From: Lachnospiraceae bacterium
GTDB taxonomy: Bacteria; Bacillota; Clostridia; Lachnospirales; Lachnospiraceae
Direction of reading: 5' to 3'
Assembly (NCBI GenBank): GCA_022800815.1
Contig: JAAWRC010000030.1
Span: forward strand, 1 to 43,281
Length of the DNA stretch: 43,281 nucleotides
Every line of letters begins with the position of its first letter. Positions within the stretch are counted from its first letter, which is position 1. Positions 5,556 through 18,663 of the stretch are shown one piece after another. The notes under the pieces were generated by a model, which was not told the origin of the DNA, did not search any database, and saw only the letters and a list, made by a program, of their open reading frames with translations. Made by a program: the position numbers and the translations under genes.

Positions 5556-6035
5556 ATGGAAAAAATCGCCAGCTTCACCGTCAACCATTTAACCCTGCTT
5601 CCCGGCCTCTACGTCTCCCGCAAGGACCACGTGGGGGACAACGTCATCACCACCTTCGACATCCGCATGACCCGCCCCAACTACGAGCCGGTCATGAACA
5701 CGGCGGAACTCCACACCATCGAGCACCTGGGGGCCACCTTCCTCCGCAACCACCCCGTTTACGGGGCCAAGACCATCTACTTCGGCCCCATGGGCTGTCG
5801 GACCGGCTGCTACCTTCTTCTGGCCGGGGACTACGAGTCCAGGGACATCGTGCCCCTCATGCGGGAAATGTTCACCTTCATCCGGGATTTCAGTGAGGAG
5901 GTGCCCGGCGCCAGGGCCAGGGACTGCGGCAACTACATGGACATGAACCTGCCCATGGCCAATTACCTGGCAGACCGCTATCTGAGAGAGGTGCTGGAGG
6001 GGATCGGGGAGGACCGGCTGATTTATCCGGAATAA
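5556..6035 (+). CDS. luxS: S-ribosylhomocysteine lyase (autoinducer-2 synthase)
   Basis: Cytosolic metalloenzyme of 159 residues that cleaves S-ribosylhomocysteine to homocysteine and the autoinducer-2 precursor DPD, as part of the activated methyl cycle. The metal ligands H53 and H57 in HTIEH, and C124 in DCGNYMDM, are present, as are E56 and the catalytic-type C81 in MGCRTG. Full family length, with a ribosome site AGAAAGGACAATCATC before ATG. It has no metabolic partner gene next to it; no pfs (SAH nucleosidase) is in the window. Instead it is directly followed, with no spacer, by the tail of a DUF3990-like gene. It appears to be a cassette that replaced the front of a toxin-type module. 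Confidence 0.95.
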   Translation: MEKIASFTVNHLTLLPGLYVSRKDHVGDNVITTFDIRMTRPNYEPVMNTAELHTIEHLGATFLRNHPVYGAKTIYFGPMGCRTGCYLLLAGDYESRDIVPLMREMFTFIRDFSEEVPGARARDCGNYMDMNLPMANYLADRYLREVLEGIGEDRLIYPE

Positions 6036-6943: not shown

Positions 6944-7651
6944 CTACAGGAACAGGGTGCGGTCCAGGAGGGCCAAAAGGGTCAGGTGGACCGGGTAAAA
7001 GAAATAGAAGAAATATTTCCGCACCAGGGCGCCGGCCGCCGTCTTCGGTTCCCTGCCGCCCTTCTCCCCGTTATAGAGAAGGAGGAAGGGCAGGGCGGCC
7101 AGGGCGTAAACCTCCAGTCCTCCCATGAAGACCATGACCAGGCCCACGCTGACGCACATGGCCAGGGGGCGGAACCGGAAATAATAGAACAGAAAAATCA
7201 TCAGCACGCCCTCCGCCCCGTAGTCACAGCGGATGAGATAGGCCAGGCACAGCGCAGAGACCACGGTCATGATGGCATAGACGGGCTGGGTATTCGCCAG
7301 GAAGCGGTTGTACAGGTACAGGAGTAAAAGGCCGATGAACAGCGTAAAAAACACGTTCTGATAGTCCGGGTGCCAGAGACGCCGGAACACCACCAGGTCA
7401 AAGGGAAGCTCGGAGACCAGGGCGAAGGCCCCCAGCCGGAGCAGGTATTTCTTTACGTCCCTCGTGTGATAAAAGCCCTCCACCAGAAGGAAACAGAAGA
7501 TGGGGAAGGCAATCCGCCCGACGATGCGCATGGTCCGCCAGACCTCCGTGGAAACTCCGGGAGAGAGCACGATCCCCAGATGGTCGATGAACATGGTGAC
7601 GACGGCGATCCATTTCAGAGTCCTGCCGTTCAAAATCTTTTTCCCTTCCAT
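6944..7651 (-). CDS. TraX-family integral membrane protein
   Basis: A hydrophobic protein of 235 residues. It begins with the TraX-type segment LNGRTLKWIAVVTMFIDHLG (conserved MxxDHxG) and continues with VGRIAFPIFCFLLVEGFYHT and about seven to eight membrane helices. TraX acetylates F-pilin in plasmids, but most chromosomal Firmicute members have no assigned substrate and are assumed to be membrane acyltransferases. The start at 7651 is chosen because GAGGAAACAGTCGGT precedes it; a longer frame to 7798 would overlap the upstream gene. It lies last in an operon after xth and the GlgX-like gene, 64 bases behind the latter. Confidence 0.8.
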   Translation of the reverse strand: MEGKKILNGRTLKWIAVVTMFIDHLGIVLSPGVSTEVWRTMRIVGRIAFPIFCFLLVEGFYHTRDVKKYLLRLGAFALVSELPFDLVVFRRLWHPDYQNVFFTLFIGLLLLYLYNRFLANTQPVYAIMTVVSALCLAYLIRCDYGAEGVLMIFLFYYFRFRPLAMCVSVGLVMVFMGGLEVYALAALPFLLLYNGEKGGREPKTAAGALVRKYFFYFFYPVHLTLLALLDRTLFL

Positions 7652-7715: not shown

Positions 7716-9599
7716 TCATTTTGGAGCTTTCTGCCTGTTCTGGCCCGCCTTCCCGCAGACGCTTTCCGCCCGGGCGGCTTCTGTCCTCTCGCAGGCACCC
7801 TCCTTTGGCACGGTCTCTTCCTTTTTCACCCCGTCGGAGACCAGCACCACGACGCTCCTGGCGTTCAGCTCGAAGGTGTCCTGATCCTCCAGGGCTCCCG
7901 GCCCCTCAAAGATCCCGTTCTGCTCCTCCGCCGAAGTGTCCACCGCCAGCCGCCAGAGGCCGTCCGTGTGGGGAAGGGAGAACACATGGGGCTCCCAGTG
8001 CATGTTGAACATCAGGTAAATGTCCGCATCCTCCGCAAACTTCCCGCTGTAATAGAACCCAAGCTGCCTCCGGTAGGCCTCGTACTGAGGATACCAGGGG
8101 GACTCGCCGTGGACGGAAAAGTCCGGACAGCCCACCCCCAGGTAATCCATTCCCATAAGTCCGCCCTCCTTGTGGAGCATGGGATGGGCTTTCCGGAACC
8201 GGAGCATATAGCCGGCGAACCGGAAAATATCCTCCCCGAATTTCCCGCCCCTCCAGTTCACCCAGCCGGTGGGATTGTCCTGGCAGTAGGCATTGTTGTT
8301 CCCGTCCTGGGAATTGCCCCGCTCGTCCCCGGCCAGGATGAGGGGCATCCCCTGGGCCATGGCGAGGAACACCCAGGCGTTGCGGAGCTGTTTTTTGCGG
8401 AGCTCCAAAATCCGCTTCTTCCGCACGGGACCCTCCACGCCACAGTTCCAGCTATGGTTGTAATCGGAACCGTCCCGCCCGTTCTCCCCGTTGGCCTCGT
8501 TGTGCTTCCGGTCATAGGAGACCATGTCGGCCATGGTGAACCCGTTGGTGTTCGCCATGAAATTGACCTTGCCGACGGCCCCGCCGTTCTCCCGCATCTG
8601 GTATGCGGCCGACTGGAGCATGTCCTCGTCCCCCTTTAACAGCCGGCGCATGTCCGTCTGAAAATCCTCCTGGTAACAGGCCAGATGGCGGTTTTTCCCC
8701 GCCGCTTCCCCGCAAAAAGCCCCGGAAAAAAGCTTCACCCCCGCAAGGGCCGGATCAGCCGCCGCAGCCCGGCTGTCAAAATTTCCGGAAACGTGGATCC
8801 CGTCCACCCGGTACTCCCCCGCCCAGTGGCGCAGACAGGCAAGCTGGAGGGCCGTTCCCATCTCCGGCCCAAAATGAAGCTCCACGGCAAGCTCCAGGTC
8901 ATTTTCATGGAAAATCTTCACAAGCTCCTTGAACTGGACGTCCGGCGGCGTCTCCCGCCCTCCCTTCACGCAGTAGGACGCCTTCGGGGCGAAGCAGTAA
9001 GCCGGGCCGTACCCCCAGAAATTGAGCTTCCCGCCGCCAATCACCTCCGAAAACTCGTCCGGCAGCACAAGCTCCGCCATGGTGACCCCAAGGCCCTTCA
9101 GATAAGGAATCTTTTCCACGATTCCGGCAAAGGTTCCCTTGTTCTTCACGCCGGAAGAGACATGCCTGGTAAAGCCCCGCACATGGAGCCGGTAAATCAC
9201 CGTATCCTCAAAGGAATGGCCGGGCGCCCGGTCCCCTCCCCAGTCGAATCCGTCCTTCAGAAACCCATAACGGACCCGTCCCTCCGCCTCTCCCCATTTT
9301 TCCCGTCCCGTCACCACCGCCGCACACACGTCCGGGACAGGGCTGCCCTCCACGGAAAGGCTGTACTCAAAGGCCGACGGATCAAAGCCGGAAAGCGCCA
9401 TGTAGCGGATGTTCCCCAGCCTGCATTCCTCCGGGAACACAAAGACCCCCGTCTCCCGCTCCCTGCCCTTCCGGTACAGATGAAGTCTGGCCGTCCCCTC
9501 AAGCTCTGATACGAACGACACGTATACACGTCCCTTTTCCACCCTTGTGCCCAGCGGAAACGGTCCCGCCCCCGAGGCCTCTGCTTTTATCTTCCCCAC
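7716..9599 (-). CDS. GlgX/pullulanase-like GH13 protein with all catalytic residues replaced (probable pseudoenzyme)
   Basis: A protein of 627 residues with an N-terminal CBM48-like domain (about 1-120), a GH13 barrel (about 130-500) and a C-terminal beta domain. The GlgX identity is clear from segments such as NFWGYGPAYCFAPKASYC, SYDRKHNEANGENGRDGSD and ERGNSQDGNNNAYCQDNPTG. Yet the four GH13 active-site motifs are changed. Motif I has LDIVLNH replaced by VELHFGP. Motif II has GFRFD replaced by GIHVS, so the nucleophile Asp is S271. Motif III has IAEPW replaced by FSGAF, so the acid Glu is G293. Motif IV has AHDGF replaced by NTNGF, so the Asp is N352. Part of domain B is also missing. The frame is intact with a GTG start and a GGAGG site, so it is expressed but probably cannot hydrolyse glucan; a glycan-binding or regulatory role is an inference. 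It sits between xth and traX. Confidence 0.85.
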   Translation of the reverse strand: MGKIKAEASGAGPFPLGTRVEKGRVYVSFVSELEGTARLHLYRKGRERETGVFVFPEECRLGNIRYMALSGFDPSAFEYSLSVEGSPVPDVCAAVVTGREKWGEAEGRVRYGFLKDGFDWGGDRAPGHSFEDTVIYRLHVRGFTRHVSSGVKNKGTFAGIVEKIPYLKGLGVTMAELVLPDEFSEVIGGGKLNFWGYGPAYCFAPKASYCVKGGRETPPDVQFKELVKIFHENDLELAVELHFGPEMGTALQLACLRHWAGEYRVDGIHVSGNFDSRAAAADPALAGVKLFSGAFCGEAAGKNRHLACYQEDFQTDMRRLLKGDEDMLQSAAYQMRENGGAVGKVNFMANTNGFTMADMVSYDRKHNEANGENGRDGSDYNHSWNCGVEGPVRKKRILELRKKQLRNAWVFLAMAQGMPLILAGDERGNSQDGNNNAYCQDNPTGWVNWRGGKFGEDIFRFAGYMLRFRKAHPMLHKEGGLMGMDYLGVGCPDFSVHGESPWYPQYEAYRRQLGFYYSGKFAEDADIYLMFNMHWEPHVFSLPHTDGLWRLAVDTSAEEQNGIFEGPGALEDQDTFELNARSVVVLVSDGVKKEETVPKEGACERTEAARAESVCGKAGQNRQKAPK

Positions 9600-9660
9600 A
9601 TTTTCCTCCTTGTCGTCACGCCGAAGCGTTCATCCTGCTGTCTCTCCTGCTGCAATTCAC

Positions 9661-10422
9661 TCATATGTCGATCAAAAGCTCCACGGGGCAATGGTCGGAG
9701 CCGGTAACTTCCGTGTGGATGGCCGCACCTAAAAGCCTGTCCTTAAGCGCTTCCGACACGCAGAAGTAATCGATCCGCCACCCAGCGTTTTTCTCCCTGG
9801 CCCGAAACCGGTAGGACCACCAGGAATAGATCCCCTCCTGATCCGGATAAAAATAGCGGAAAGTGTCGATAAAGCCCGCCGCAAGGAGCGCCGTGAACTT
9901 CCCCCGCTCCTCGTCGGTAAAACCGGCGTTCTTCCGGTTGGTCTTGGGATTCTTTAAGTCGATCTCCTTATGGGCCACGTTTAAGTCCCCGCAGAAGATC
10001 ACCGGTTTTTTCCCCTCCAGCCCTTTTAAATAGCCCAGGAAGGCGTCCTCCCACTCCATCCGGTAGGGAAGCCTCGCCAGCTCATTCTGGGAATTGGGCG
10101 TGTAGCAGGTCACCAGGTAATGACCCGGATATTCCAGGGTGATGACCCGCCCCTCCCGGTCGTGCTCTTCCTTTCCGATCCCATAAAAAACGCTGAGCGG
10201 CTCTTCCTTTGTAAAAACCGCCGTCCCCGAATACCCCTTCTTCTGCGCATAATTCCAATACTGATGATACCCCTCCGGAGAAAGGTCGATCTGCCCCTCC
10301 TGGAGCTTCGTCTCCTGCAGGCAGAACACGTCTGCGTCCGCCTCCATAAAATACGTCTCAAATCCCTTGGTCACACAGGCCCTGAGGCCATTGACATTCC
10401 AGGAAATTAATTTTTTTACCAT
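9661..10422 (-). CDS. xth: exodeoxyribonuclease III / AP endonuclease
   Basis: A protein of 253 residues of the exonuclease-endonuclease-phosphatase fold that cuts abasic DNA 5' to the lesion and removes 3' blocking groups in base excision repair. Motifs in order: [10 protein letters not shown] (6-15), LQETKL (metal-binding E37), [30 protein letters not shown], and the terminal GSDHCPV with the catalytic His. Family length is normal. The start at 10422 is chosen for its GGAGG site 7 bases upstream, in preference to an upstream ATG at 10482. A consensus promoter lies just ahead. It heads a three-gene operon with the GlgX-like pseudoenzyme and traX. Confidence 0.93.
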
Positions 10423-10441
10423 ATTTTTTCCTCCAGACTTT

Positions 10442-10470
10442 ATTATAAACGATACCGGGAATGCGTTCAA
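10442..10470 (-). promoter_or_regulatory. promoter of the xth operon
   Basis: Minus strand TTGAAC (10465-10470), 17-base spacer, TATAAT (10442-10447), about 20 bases from the start codon. Confidence 0.65.
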
Positions 10471-10692
10471 GAAAAAACGCAAATTAACCGGAAATCCGCC
10501 ATTCCTCGATCAGACAGGAATGGTTCAGGTAATGTCCCATAAACTTCCCGCCTCCATCCTGCAAAAATGTTCCATTCTTCCGTTTATCATACCACAGCAA
10601 AACCTCCCCAGGCAATGCCAAAATCGTCCCCTCCGCGAAATCCTTTGAAATTCCGCTTGCAAAATCCTCATTTTCCTGTAAAATAAGACTAT

Positions 10693-14929: not shown

Positions 14930-17137
14930 CTATACATCCTCCGGCCTCTCCCTGGGAATGAAAGTCCGACCGGATGTAAGCTGCTCTTTCTTCTTCTTTA
15001 ATTCCTCCGCCGCCCGAATGGCTTCCTCCGAAAAGACCGCCTGGGAATCCACCAGGGCCTTGCCCCGCTTATCCGGCTTCTCGTAGGTGCCGTCCGGCAT
15101 GAGGATGTGGGAGCGGACGTTGTCGGCAAGCTCCGTCTCCAGAATGTGGAGGGCCTGCTCCTTGTTCTCCTCCACCTCCACCGGGAAGAGAAGCTCCACC
15201 CGCCGGTCCAGGTTCCTGGGCATCCAGTCGGCGCTCCCCATATAGATCTCATAGCTTCCGCCGTTCCCGAAATAGAAGATCCGGCTGTGCTCCAGGAAGG
15301 TTCCCACGATGGAACGAACCGTGATATTGTCGCTGACCCCGGGGATTTTGGTCTTTAAGCTGCAGATCCCCCGGACGATCAGGTCGATCTTCACCCCCGC
15401 CGCCGAGGCTTTGTAAAGCTCCTCGATGATCACCGGGTCACAGAGGGAATTCATCTTCGCAATGATCCTGCCCTCATAGCCCTGGGACACGCACTTGACC
15501 TCCCGGCGGATCAGCGCCACGAACCGGTTCTTGAGCCACAGAGGCGCCATGGAAAGCTTGTTCCAGGAAAGGGGCTCCGAATAGCCGGAAAGCATGTTGA
15601 AGACGGCGCTGGCGTCCTCCCCCACCGCCCGGTCGCAGGTCATGATTCCCGTGTCCGTGTAGAGCTTCGCCGTGGAATCGTTGTAATTGCCCGTGGCCAT
15701 GTGGACGTAGCGGCGGATGCCGTCCTCCTCCCTGCGGACCACCAGGCAGATCTTGCAGTGGGTCTTAAGGCCCAGAAGGCCGTAGATCACGTGGCAGCCC
15801 GCCTGCTCCAGCCTCTTGGCCCAGATGATGTTGTTCTCCTCGTCAAACCGTGCCTTAAGCTCCACCAAAACCGTCACCTGCTTGCCGTTCTCCGCCGCCC
15901 TCGCTAACGCCGCCACGATGGGCGAATGGCCGCTCACCCGGTACAGAGTCTGCTTGATGGCAAGAACCTGGGGATCCGAAGCCGCCTGCTTCACAAAATC
16001 CACCACCGGATCAAAGGACTCATACGGGTGGTGCAGGAAAATATTCCCCCTGCGGATGTTGGCAAAAATATCGTCCTCGCCTGCAAACTCCGGGACGATC
16101 TGAGGCTTCCAGGGCTTCTGCTTCAGATGGTCAAAGCCCTCCTCCCCGTAGAGCTTCATGAGAAACGTCAGGTCCAGGGGGCCGTTTATAAAGAAGATCA
16201 CGTCGTCCTTGATGGCAAACTCCTTTTTGAGGATCTTTAAGAGCCGCTTGTCGATCCCCTCCTCCACCTCCAGACGAATCACCTCGCCCCACTGCCTCCG
16301 CTTTAACTGCCGCTCGATCTCCTTTAAGAGGTCCTCCGCCTCCTCCTCGTCGATGGGCAGGTCGGCGTTTCGCATGATCCGGTAGGGATGGGCGCAGACG
16401 ATCTCATAATTGAGGAACAGCCGGTCCATATTCCGCTCAATGATCTCCTCCAGCAGGATGACGGAGCGAGTCCCGTCTTTTCCCCCCGGAAGCTCCACGA
16501 TGCGGGGGAGCACCGCCGGCACCTGCACCGTGGCAAACTCCAGCGCTCCCTTTTTCTCGCCGTCCTTTTTTTCGTTCTCCTTCTTGTCCCCGTCCTTCTT
16601 ATCCCCGCCCTTCTTTTTTTTGAGCAGGGCCGCAATGTTCAGGCTCTTGTTGCGGACCAGGGGAAAGGGCCTGGACGAATCCACGGCCATGGGCGTCACC
16701 ACCGGGTAGACATTCGTCTCAAAGTAGTCGTCCACGAAGGCCGCCTGCTTTTCGTCGAGCTGCTCATGGTGGGAAATGACCTCGATCCCCTCTTTCTTGA
16801 GGAGCGGCAAAAGCGACCGGTTCCAGGTGGAATACTGGACGTCCACCAGCTCGTGCATGCCCCGGCCGATGGCCTCAAGCTGCTCCCCGGCCGTCATCCC
16901 GGCAATGTCCCGCCCCTTGTAATCCGCATGGACCATGTCCTTTAAGGAAGCCACCCGCACCATGACAAATTCATCCAGGTTGGAGGCGGTGATGGACAGG
17001 AACTTCAGCCGCTCAAACAGCAGGTTGTTCTTGTCCCTGGCCTCGCTCAAGACCCGGTGGTTAAACTGGAGCCAGGAAAGCTCCCGGTTTTCAAAATATT
17101 CGACCTTCCGAAAATCCCTCTCTTCTCCCATGGTCAC
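14930..17137 (-). CDS. ppk1: polyphosphate kinase 1
   Basis: A protein of 735 residues that makes inorganic polyphosphate from ATP, reversibly. The N-terminal domain begins YFENRELSWLQFNHRVLSEA; the catalytic domains contain AIKQTLYRVSGHSPIVAALA, LVELKARFDEENNI and GLKTHCKICLV with the autophosphorylated-type H460, then HMATGNYNDSTAKLYTD. Unusual is a Lys-rich insertion at residues 173-197, with 14 Lys plus Asp and Glu. The start at 17137 is a GTG overlapping the ppx stop (GTGA); an ATG two codons on has better spacing from the GGGGG site. It is the last gene of the operon, directly coupled to ppx. In Lachnospiraceae this pairing controls polyphosphate synthesis and breakdown together (inference from context). 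Confidence 0.93.
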   Translation of the reverse strand: MTMGEERDFRKVEYFENRELSWLQFNHRVLSEARDKNNLLFERLKFLSITASNLDEFVMVRVASLKDMVHADYKGRDIAGMTAGEQLEAIGRGMHELVDVQYSTWNRSLLPLLKKEGIEVISHHEQLDEKQAAFVDDYFETNVYPVVTPMAVDSSRPFPLVRNKSLNIAALLKKKKGGDKKDGDKKENEKKDGEKKGALEFATVQVPAVLPRIVELPGGKDGTRSVILLEEIIERNMDRLFLNYEIVCAHPYRIMRNADLPIDEEEAEDLLKEIERQLKRRQWGEVIRLEVEEGIDKRLLKILKKEFAIKDDVIFFINGPLDLTFLMKLYGEEGFDHLKQKPWKPQIVPEFAGEDDIFANIRRGNIFLHHPYESFDPVVDFVKQAASDPQVLAIKQTLYRVSGHSPIVAALARAAENGKQVTVLVELKARFDEENNIIWAKRLEQAGCHVIYGLLGLKTHCKICLVVRREEDGIRRYVHMATGNYNDSTAKLYTDTGIMTCDRAVGEDASAVFNMLSGYSEPLSWNKLSMAPLWLKNRFVALIRREVKCVSQGYEGRIIAKMNSLCDPVIIEELYKASAAGVKIDLIVRGICSLKTKIPGVSDNITVRSIVGTFLEHSRIFYFGNGGSYEIYMGSADWMPRNLDRRVELLFPVEVEENKEQALHILETELADNVRSHILMPDGTYEKPDKRGKALVDSQAVFSEEAIRAAEELKKKKEQLTSGRTFIPRERPEDV

Positions 17138-18663
17138 GCCCCCTTCTTTTTCTTGAGCACCGGCCGGATGCCGTAGACCTCTTCAAAGAAATCCGCCCGG
17201 TGACTGAACATCGCCTCCTCCAGCAGGATGCTCTCCGGCGAGGAGGTGGTGATGAACATCTGCTGGTCCTTGACGGAAATGCGCACGTCCTTGAACTTCT
17301 GCTTCTGGCTCCGGTCCATGGCGTTGCCGATCTTTAAGATCGCCGTCAGCTTGGCGATGGTGATCCGCATGGACTTGTTTAAGCTCACGTCCCCGGTGGT
17401 GTAGTCAAACTCCATGGTGTTGTACTTCACCACGTTGGCAATAATCACCCGCTCCTTGTGGGACATGCCGATGATCTCCGTGGAGAGAATGATGTTGTAG
17501 GCGCACTCCCCCGGCGTCTTCATGCTGATGTAATTGCCGCAGTCGTGGAGAATGGCGCTGATCTGCAGAAGCAGCCGCTCCCGCTTCCCCAGGCCATGAT
17601 ATTTCTTCATGCCGTCAAAAATGTTTAACACGTTCTTCTCCAGAACGGCCGAATGATCCCGGTCGCTCATGTAGCGCTTGGCGATGTTCCGGGCCGCCAC
17701 CAGGATGTCCTTGGAAAAGTCGTGGGCAAAGTGGATGAGCTTCTTCTGCTCCGCAAATTCCGCCACGATCCCGTCCCCTAAGCGCACTCCCGGAAGCCAG
17801 ACCATCTCCGCCTCCGTGGCGTCGATGAGCCTCTTATAGACCATGGCCCCCGGCACCACCAGGGAGACAAACTCCGAGGGGATGTCGTACTTCTCGGCGA
17901 TCTGGTCCTCGCCCATGTTCCGCAGATCCTCGTAAAACTCCATGAACTCCTCGGCACTGATCCTCTGCTTGTCCGCATGGGCGCCCCTCCCCAGGTACAT
18001 GGCGCAGACGCCGGTGGCAATGATGTTCTTCACGTTCCGTTCCTTCAAAAACAGCTTCTTAAAGGCGGTGATCTCATTGTCAATGAGCTCCTGGGCCAGC
18101 TTTTTCCGGTCCTCGGCCATCCCCCCGATCCGGGCCAGGATCTGGTGGATCCTGAGGGCCCCCAGCTTCAGGTTCTGGGTCGTCACCAGGGCGTCCTTGT
18201 CAAAGAGGGAGATCTGGGTGCTGCCGGAGCCCACCTCCACGATGGCCGTCCCCTTCTGGATGATGTTGTTGAATTCATTCTCCTTGGCCGCAATGGCCTT
18301 GTAGCAGAGGAACCGCTGCTCCGAATTGCTGAGGACGTCGATCTCGATGCCGGTGCGCACCCGGATCTGGTCCAGGACCACCTCCCGGTTCTCTGCCTCC
18401 CTTATGGCGCTGGTCCCGTAGGCCCGGTAATTCTCCACCTGGTACTCTGCCATGACCAACTGGAACCGGTGCAGGAGCCTGCACATCTCGTCCACCCGCT
18501 CATAGCTGATGATGCCCCTCTCATAGGTATCCCGCCCAAGCCCGATGACCTTTCTCAGCCGCTCCAACTGGACGATCCCCCTCTTGGGCGAGATCTCGTA
18601 AATGGTGAGCTCCAGCTCGTAGGAGCCCACGTCGATCGCCGCAAACGCCGTAACAGACGCCAT
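17134..18663 (-). CDS. ppx: Ppx/GppA-family exopolyphosphatase
   Basis: A protein of 509 residues of the sugar kinase/actin-like Ppx-GppA family, which releases phosphate from polyphosphate ends or hydrolyses pppGpp. The N-terminal phosphate loop is AAIDVGSYELELTIYEI; the second loop is IVEVGSGSTQISLF, where GGGSTE is more usual. The C-terminal part has an HD-like domain with ILHDCGNYISMKTPGE and SHKERVIIANVVKY, as in long Ppx proteins. Overlap of four bases with ppk1 favours a polyphosphate function, though pppGpp cannot be excluded. It follows the DUF815 gene by 18 bases, within the long folate/phenylalanine operon. Confidence 0.88.
   Translation of the reverse strand: MASVTAFAAIDVGSYELELTIYEISPKRGIVQLERLRKVIGLGRDTYERGIISYERVDEMCRLLHRFQLVMAEYQVENYRAYGTSAIREAENREVVLDQIRVRTGIEIDVLSNSEQRFLCYKAIAAKENEFNNIIQKGTAIVEVGSGSTQISLFDKDALVTTQNLKLGALRIHQILARIGGMAEDRKKLAQELIDNEITAFKKLFLKERNVKNIIATGVCAMYLGRGAHADKQRISAEEFMEFYEDLRNMGEDQIAEKYDIPSEFVSLVVPGAMVYKRLIDATEAEMVWLPGVRLGDGIVAEFAEQKKLIHFAHDFSKDILVAARNIAKRYMSDRDHSAVLEKNVLNIFDGMKKYHGLGKRERLLLQISAILHDCGNYISMKTPGECAYNIILSTEIIGMSHKERVIIANVVKYNTMEFDYTTGDVSLNKSMRITIAKLTAILKIGNAMDRSQKQKFKDVRISVKDQQMFITTSSPESILLEEAMFSHRADFFEEVYGIRPVLKKKKGA

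Follow-up and report, generated by a model that had tools for sequence, protein, structure and literature searches.

A lineage-wide GlgX pseudoenzyme of Lachnospiraceae with an erased GH13 active site and a candidate glucan-contact lobe

What keeps a full-length GlgX-like gene open when its product has lost the residues that cut glucan? The question is posed by a gene, here called pseudo-glgX, in the window, the whole stretch of 43,281 nucleotides that was analysed (contig JAAWRC010000030.1 of the Lachnospiraceae bacterium assembly GCA_022800815.1). An initial annotation had described an intact frame with a good start and an erased GH13 active site, and had proposed that the gene is selected for a non-catalytic role and has not simply decayed. 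The features discussed here are as follows, with residues numbered from Met = 1.

7716..9599, minus strand: pseudo-glgX, encoding a GlgX/isoamylase-like protein of 627 aa without a catalytic site (open reading frame, translation)
9605..9611, minus strand: ribosome-binding site AAGGAGG, 5 bases ahead of the GTG start (sequence)
8697..8882, minus strand: erased catalytic half, residues 240-301, with the remnants of motifs I, II and III and the shortened stretches between them
8253..8543, minus strand: conserved border-lobe block, residues 353-449, reading KHNEANGENGRDG...SWNCGVEG...GDE...GNNNAYCQDN...W
8448..8450, minus strand: codon of Trp384, the mapped counterpart of maize ISA1 Trp578 (SBS2 glucan contact)
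6944..7651, minus strand: traX, directly downstream of pseudo-glgX (Pfam TraX 158.9 bits; conserved neighbour; start, ATG 7651, assigned by this analysis)
9661..10482, minus strand: open reading frame of xth (exodeoxyribonuclease III), directly upstream of pseudo-glgX (TIGR00633, 323.5 bits)

An intact frame and an erased catalytic site

The coordinates, strand and frame of the gene proved correct, with AAGGAGG standing before a GTG start codon at 9599. Against the NCBIfam model for GlgX (TIGR02100) the protein scores 261.3 bits and does not reach the equivalog cut-off of 640.9, just below which some active-type GlgX proteins of Lachnospiraceae also score; in a Pfam search the alpha-amylase cut-off was not reached. 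Pseudo-GlgX can be aligned (VIA-align) with isoamylases and GlgX proteins of known structure, and the N-terminal beta domain, barrel and C-terminal domain of an isoamylase-type fold are all predicted to be present. Elsewhere in the window lie luxS (5556-6035; Pfam LuxS 205 bits), which is often close to the pseudo-glgX locus in the genus, and adjoining genes for polyphosphate kinase and a Ppx/GppA phosphatase (14930-18663, minus strand; Pfam).

Eight residues are listed as invariant in active GH13 enzymes in a passage of PMC3787081. Their counterparts in pseudo-GlgX are E240, H242, P245, H269, S271, G293, T351 and N352, and none of the eight is kept. Motif I (DxxxNH) is gone and reads ELHFGP (E240, H242, P245); motif II reads VDGIHVSG, with the Arg replaced by H269 and, in an ungapped reading, the nucleophile Asp by S271; the general acid Glu has become G293, and the HD of motif IV is T351-N352. 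Every substitution named in the initial annotation is thereby present in the sequence. The losses extend beyond single residues: between motifs I and II, pseudo-GlgX is 44 residues shorter than the genome's other GlgX, and it is shortened again after motif II. That second, active-type copy, whose existence had been raised as a check, is encoded on contig C40 of the same genome with its triad complete.

A comparison alignment was assembled from 142 homologues lacking the site (dead proteins) and 62 active-type proteins, with other same-genus copies, fragments and duplicates left out. The expectation that homologues would carry the same substitutions held for the nucleophile and the loop, whose loss is universal, and held in part elsewhere. 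All 142 dead proteins have a gap at the nucleophile position (an Asp stands at the ungapped neighbour in one), and the columns within the motif I-II stretch are gaps in every dead row, but Glu lingers at the acid column in 18 of the 142 and the motif IV Asp in 28. Counted by row, zero, one and two residues of the catalytic triad are kept in 101, 36 and 5 dead proteins, and zero, one, two and three of the eight GH13 invariants in 50, 54, 31 and 7. Among the 138 columns conserved at ≥95% in active-type proteins, 54 keep their residue in ≤35% of dead proteins. Conservation common to both groups (one residue at ≥90% in each) was found at 62 columns, half of which (31) fall in residues 353-449, as do 16 of 28 columns found invariant in alignment A2. 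The sole newly conserved column found in the dead proteins is D485, in the C-terminal part.

Distribution, ancestry and selection

Within the genus itself, all 11 genomes searched (own genome included) hold a match, and the same-genus rows that were read share the erased-site pattern except for a Glu at the acid column in L014 and L015. Some matches contain one or two listed stops, which we take as terminal because the frames used run from stop to stop and are full length. Across the family, taken to be Lachnospiraceae from the named relatives (a few dead relatives carry other names), the dead protein occurs in 123 of 150 genomes, sampled at about one per genus. These carriers comprise 122 genomes with loci L129-L250, two of them cut by contig ends, and G007, in which the gene is split over two contigs; the 27 absences were called from search results alone, and that of G119 is doubtful (best E 6.8e-95). 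In two overlapping draws from wider taxa, the dead protein was present in 8/10 family members and 0/233 others of the class (243 genomes), and in 2/4 family members and 0/295 others of the phylum (299 genomes). Matches outside the family were called non-members by score and length, those of the phylum draw (G556, G620) by these alone; the five that were inspected keep the motif II Asp. Two GlgX-like proteins from two other families of the class (L262, L263) keep this Asp in the odd contexts DGFRIDEAPI and DGFRVDEFPI.

Phylogenetic analysis, with both trees built without plant rows, placed the dead proteins together. In the first tree a single branch separates 26 dead from 66 active-type rows. 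The second, rooted tree (the window protein, 26 random other dead rows, 29 active-type rows and six outgroup rows) supports the dead clade at 100/100 and does not settle its joining point to GlgX. Pairwise Nei-Gojobori estimates on stop-to-stop frames gave dN/dS values of 0.08-0.20, far below 1, for eight of nine dead pairs, the ninth being saturated; five pairs of the active-type paralogue gave 0.04-0.14.

These results bear directly on whether the gene is simply a decaying pseudogene whose frame is open by coincidence. The lost site is what such decay would explain, and nothing else is; dN/dS of 0.08-0.20, long open frames across genera and the grouping of the dead proteins in one clade argue so strongly against it that we give it practically no credence. 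Neither a mutation confined to this copy nor a dN/dS near 1, the computable outcomes named in the initial annotation as contrary to its proposal, was found. The proposal that the gene is selected for a non-catalytic role, and not decaying, is supported: homologues share the loss, an active-type GlgX coexists in the genome and dN/dS lies far below 1. We therefore regard pseudo-GlgX, with high confidence, as a lineage-wide and maintained GlgX pseudoenzyme, and since the dead version is kept across most sampled Lachnospiraceae genera, it probably does something other than cutting.

The border lobe and a candidate role

A clue to that function comes from plant isoamylases. In passages of PMC12510319, four mutated residues of the maize ISA1 border lobe are described (R504, N561, W578 and N628), W578 is said to contact glucan in a secondary site, SBS2, and ISA2 is reported to keep SBS1 without SBS2. 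By our own count, rice ISA1 has the same residue types at a constant offset of 11 (R493, N550, W567, N617). R318, N367, W384 and N434 of pseudo-GlgX align with these four residues, all of which are kept in 121/142 dead and 46/62 active-type proteins; Trp stands at position 384 in 124/142 and 46/62, respectively, leaving 18 dead proteins without it. The persistence of the four residues alongside loss of the catalytic site suggests that evolution removed the cutting half but spared the glucan-contact lobe. Conservation of the lobe could also reflect support of the fold and is not necessarily a sign of glucan contact. Judged from sequence and predicted structure, the protein has lost the GH13 catalytic machinery and retains the fold and the border lobe, and purifying selection acts on the gene.

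A glycogen-binding scaffold or regulator, the kind of role that the initial annotation had offered as an example, fits with the apparently retained glucan-contact lobe. Binding of alpha-glucan by this lobe is the best-supported candidate mechanism for the dead proteins, and we lean modestly towards it. In full, pseudo-GlgX would be a lineage-specific pseudoenzyme of single origin from a GlgX/isoamylase-type debranching enzyme, which would bind branched alpha-1,4/1,6-glucan (glycogen or limit dextrin) without cutting it. The putative binding site is the border lobe, the counterpart of SBS2, with Trp384. As a glycogen-associated adaptor or organiser, the protein may bring other glucan enzymes to the particle or space its chains, by analogy with maize, in which ISA2 and catalytically dead ISA1 variants alter starch. 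Taken as a whole, this explanation is somewhat favoured.

Ordering of loops 366-382 and 432-443 upon binding was considered and rejected. A first structure model built from 23 rows had given pLDDT below 50 at these most conserved loops, and a model from 120 rows gives 88-97 in ten-residue blocks; the low values are thus an effect of the shallow alignment.

Genomic setting, rival roles and comparison with known systems

The usual neighbours of the dead gene are traX, DUF5662, DUF1292, uvrD, gltX and an ABC-F gene; none of these is a glycogen gene, which counts against the glycogen-binding reading. A survey of 109 loci outside the genus found DUF5662 downstream in the same orientation in 61, TraX in 32 and TraX then DUF5662 in series in 15, with xth upstream in 19. 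Of 104 loci whose downstream sequence extends to 1 kb or more, 77 have TraX or DUF5662 following in the same orientation at a distance of ≤400 bp, so the setting beside traX, which the initial annotation had found unexpected, is instead conserved and ordinary for this gene. DUF5662, a family of unknown function that recurs directly downstream in many loci (for example 7706-8260 in L197), is present in 130/150 family genomes and 0/14 controls. In G144, whose best match to the dead protein has E 3.8e-5, traX and DUF5662 lie in series with ~1.1 kb upstream of them on the contig; in G025, the contig opens just 51 bases ahead of the traX start (base 52), and the absence of the dead gene may reflect the assembly edge.

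Glycogen genes are widespread in the same 150 genomes, and the pattern of GlgA and GlgB given here speaks for the glycogen-binding reading. GlgA was above cut-off in 149 and GlgB in 146; the four that fell short for GlgB (G052, G069, G070, G084) all belong to the 27 non-carriers (Fisher p 0.0009, relatedness uncontrolled), and with both genes so common, the co-occurrence signal rests on these four. Active-type GlgX, counted by score (>335 bits) with the triad itself read in three genomes (G000, G013, G117), occurs in 44, a type I pullulanase over cut-off in 37 and a strong GH133 match in 27. Neither pullulanase nor GH133 presence showed a signal relative to the dead protein across the 150 genomes (p 1.0 and p 0.17). 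On whole contigs, at least nine carriers have a GlgB gene no more than 15 kb from the dead gene, the closest gap among the matches listed being 349 bp (G109, contig C6:101663-105721). Random placement in 3 Mb would put a given GlgB that near in ~1% of cases; the observed proximity exceeds this per-gene expectation, with related genomes and inherited order uncorrected. It is a minority pattern, GlgB occurring in the flanks of 4/109 dead loci with multi-kb flanks and 1/63 active-type loci, the latter mostly from other taxa.

Against this background, other roles for the dead protein can be weighed. The fold could have been reused for a non-glucan function, for example as a scaffold that works with TraX, a membrane protein, or DUF5662. 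The 77 loci with either gene directly downstream, the 15 with both in series and the lack of any traX match in the active-type GlgX loci scanned (a weak control, mostly from other taxa) speak for this reading. Both genes are, however, near-universal in the family (TraX in 140/150 genomes, DUF5662 in 130/150) and also occur without the dead gene, so that the linkage may be plain inherited gene order; we rejected TraX and DUF5662 as working partners on these grounds, real though the gene order is. With the glucan-contact lobe also retained, non-glucan reuse appears doubtful.

A second possibility stays with glucan and makes pseudo-GlgX an obligate ISA2-like subunit that would join the cell's active GlgX in a heteromer and tune the latter's stability or specificity. 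The precedent of plant ISA2 (described in part of PMC3787081) and the intact GlgX of the own genome favour it, as do the higher frequency of active-type GlgX in carriers (41/123 versus 3/27, p 0.02) and the location of both genes within ~4 kb in two genomes (G117, G122). Such a subunit would lack its partner in 82/123 carriers, which show no GlgX match above 335 bits (fragmented genes could be missed), and SBS2, reported absent from ISA2, is conserved in the dead proteins; the proposal is improbable, and an ISA1/ISA2-style partnership as the general role is unlikely given those 82 carriers, although some species may have one. The two close pairs (L189 of G117; contig C30 of G122) perhaps date from an old duplication or reflect a working link. 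Least plausible among the functional alternatives is an enzyme with a relocated active site that debranches in genomes without other debranching enzymes. Active-type GlgX, type I pullulanase and strong GH133 are all missing, at thresholds that may overlook divergent pullulanases, from 58/123 carriers, and acids are kept on conserved loops (E372, D376, E389, D425, E426). The same three enzymes are missing from 18/27 non-carriers, the nucleophile and surrounding stretches are gone, and four of the five acids are not new, since they occupy positions shared with active-type GlgX; we consider relocation very improbable. These 58 carriers and 18 non-carriers encode GlgA yet, at these thresholds, no recognised debranching enzyme of the three families searched.

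If the favoured reading of a glycogen-binding adaptor or organiser is right, the family would offer a bacterial system in which to test the effects of a non-catalytic isoamylase on storage glucans, a role still being worked out for plant ISA2. By homology pseudo-GlgX reads as GlgX, and debranching capacity in Lachnospiraceae may therefore be over-counted; on the scale seen here, the dead protein is present in 123/150 genomes and active-type GlgX in 44, and one review passage credits Blautia obeum with two glgX homologues (PMC10395257). The survey also draws attention to the 58 carriers and 18 non-carriers just described. A search of open-access literature found no paper on a dead bacterial GlgX. 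We tentatively raise the broader possibility that bacteria evolved a non-catalytic isoamylase of their own, a dead GlgX organising the Lachnospiraceae glycogen particle, independently of ISA2 and with the opposite glucan site retained; a dedicated structural protein would then take part in building or mobilising glycogen in this family.

Among known systems, plant ISA2 (GH13_11) is the closest in kind: it too is a non-catalytic isoamylase-type protein that keeps its fold, and in the Lachnospiraceae protein the catalytic residues are lost in one conserved clade. Arabidopsis ISA2, as described in part of PMC3787081, has six of the eight GH13 invariants substituted and two kept, whereas in pseudo-GlgX all eight are substituted and the motif I-II stretch is shortened. 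ISA2 reportedly keeps SBS1 and lacks SBS2, whereas pseudo-GlgX appears to keep SBS2 and the border lobe, and most of its carriers show no active isoamylase-type partner. Compared with bacterial GlgX/TreX (TIGR02100), pseudo-GlgX lacks the catalytic triad and is ~100 residues shorter. The GlgX of S. venezuelae, reported in passages of PMC9530166 as a c-di-GMP-regulated debranching enzyme, shares the fold and is an example of a GlgX with a regulatory ligand site, but it is an active enzyme.
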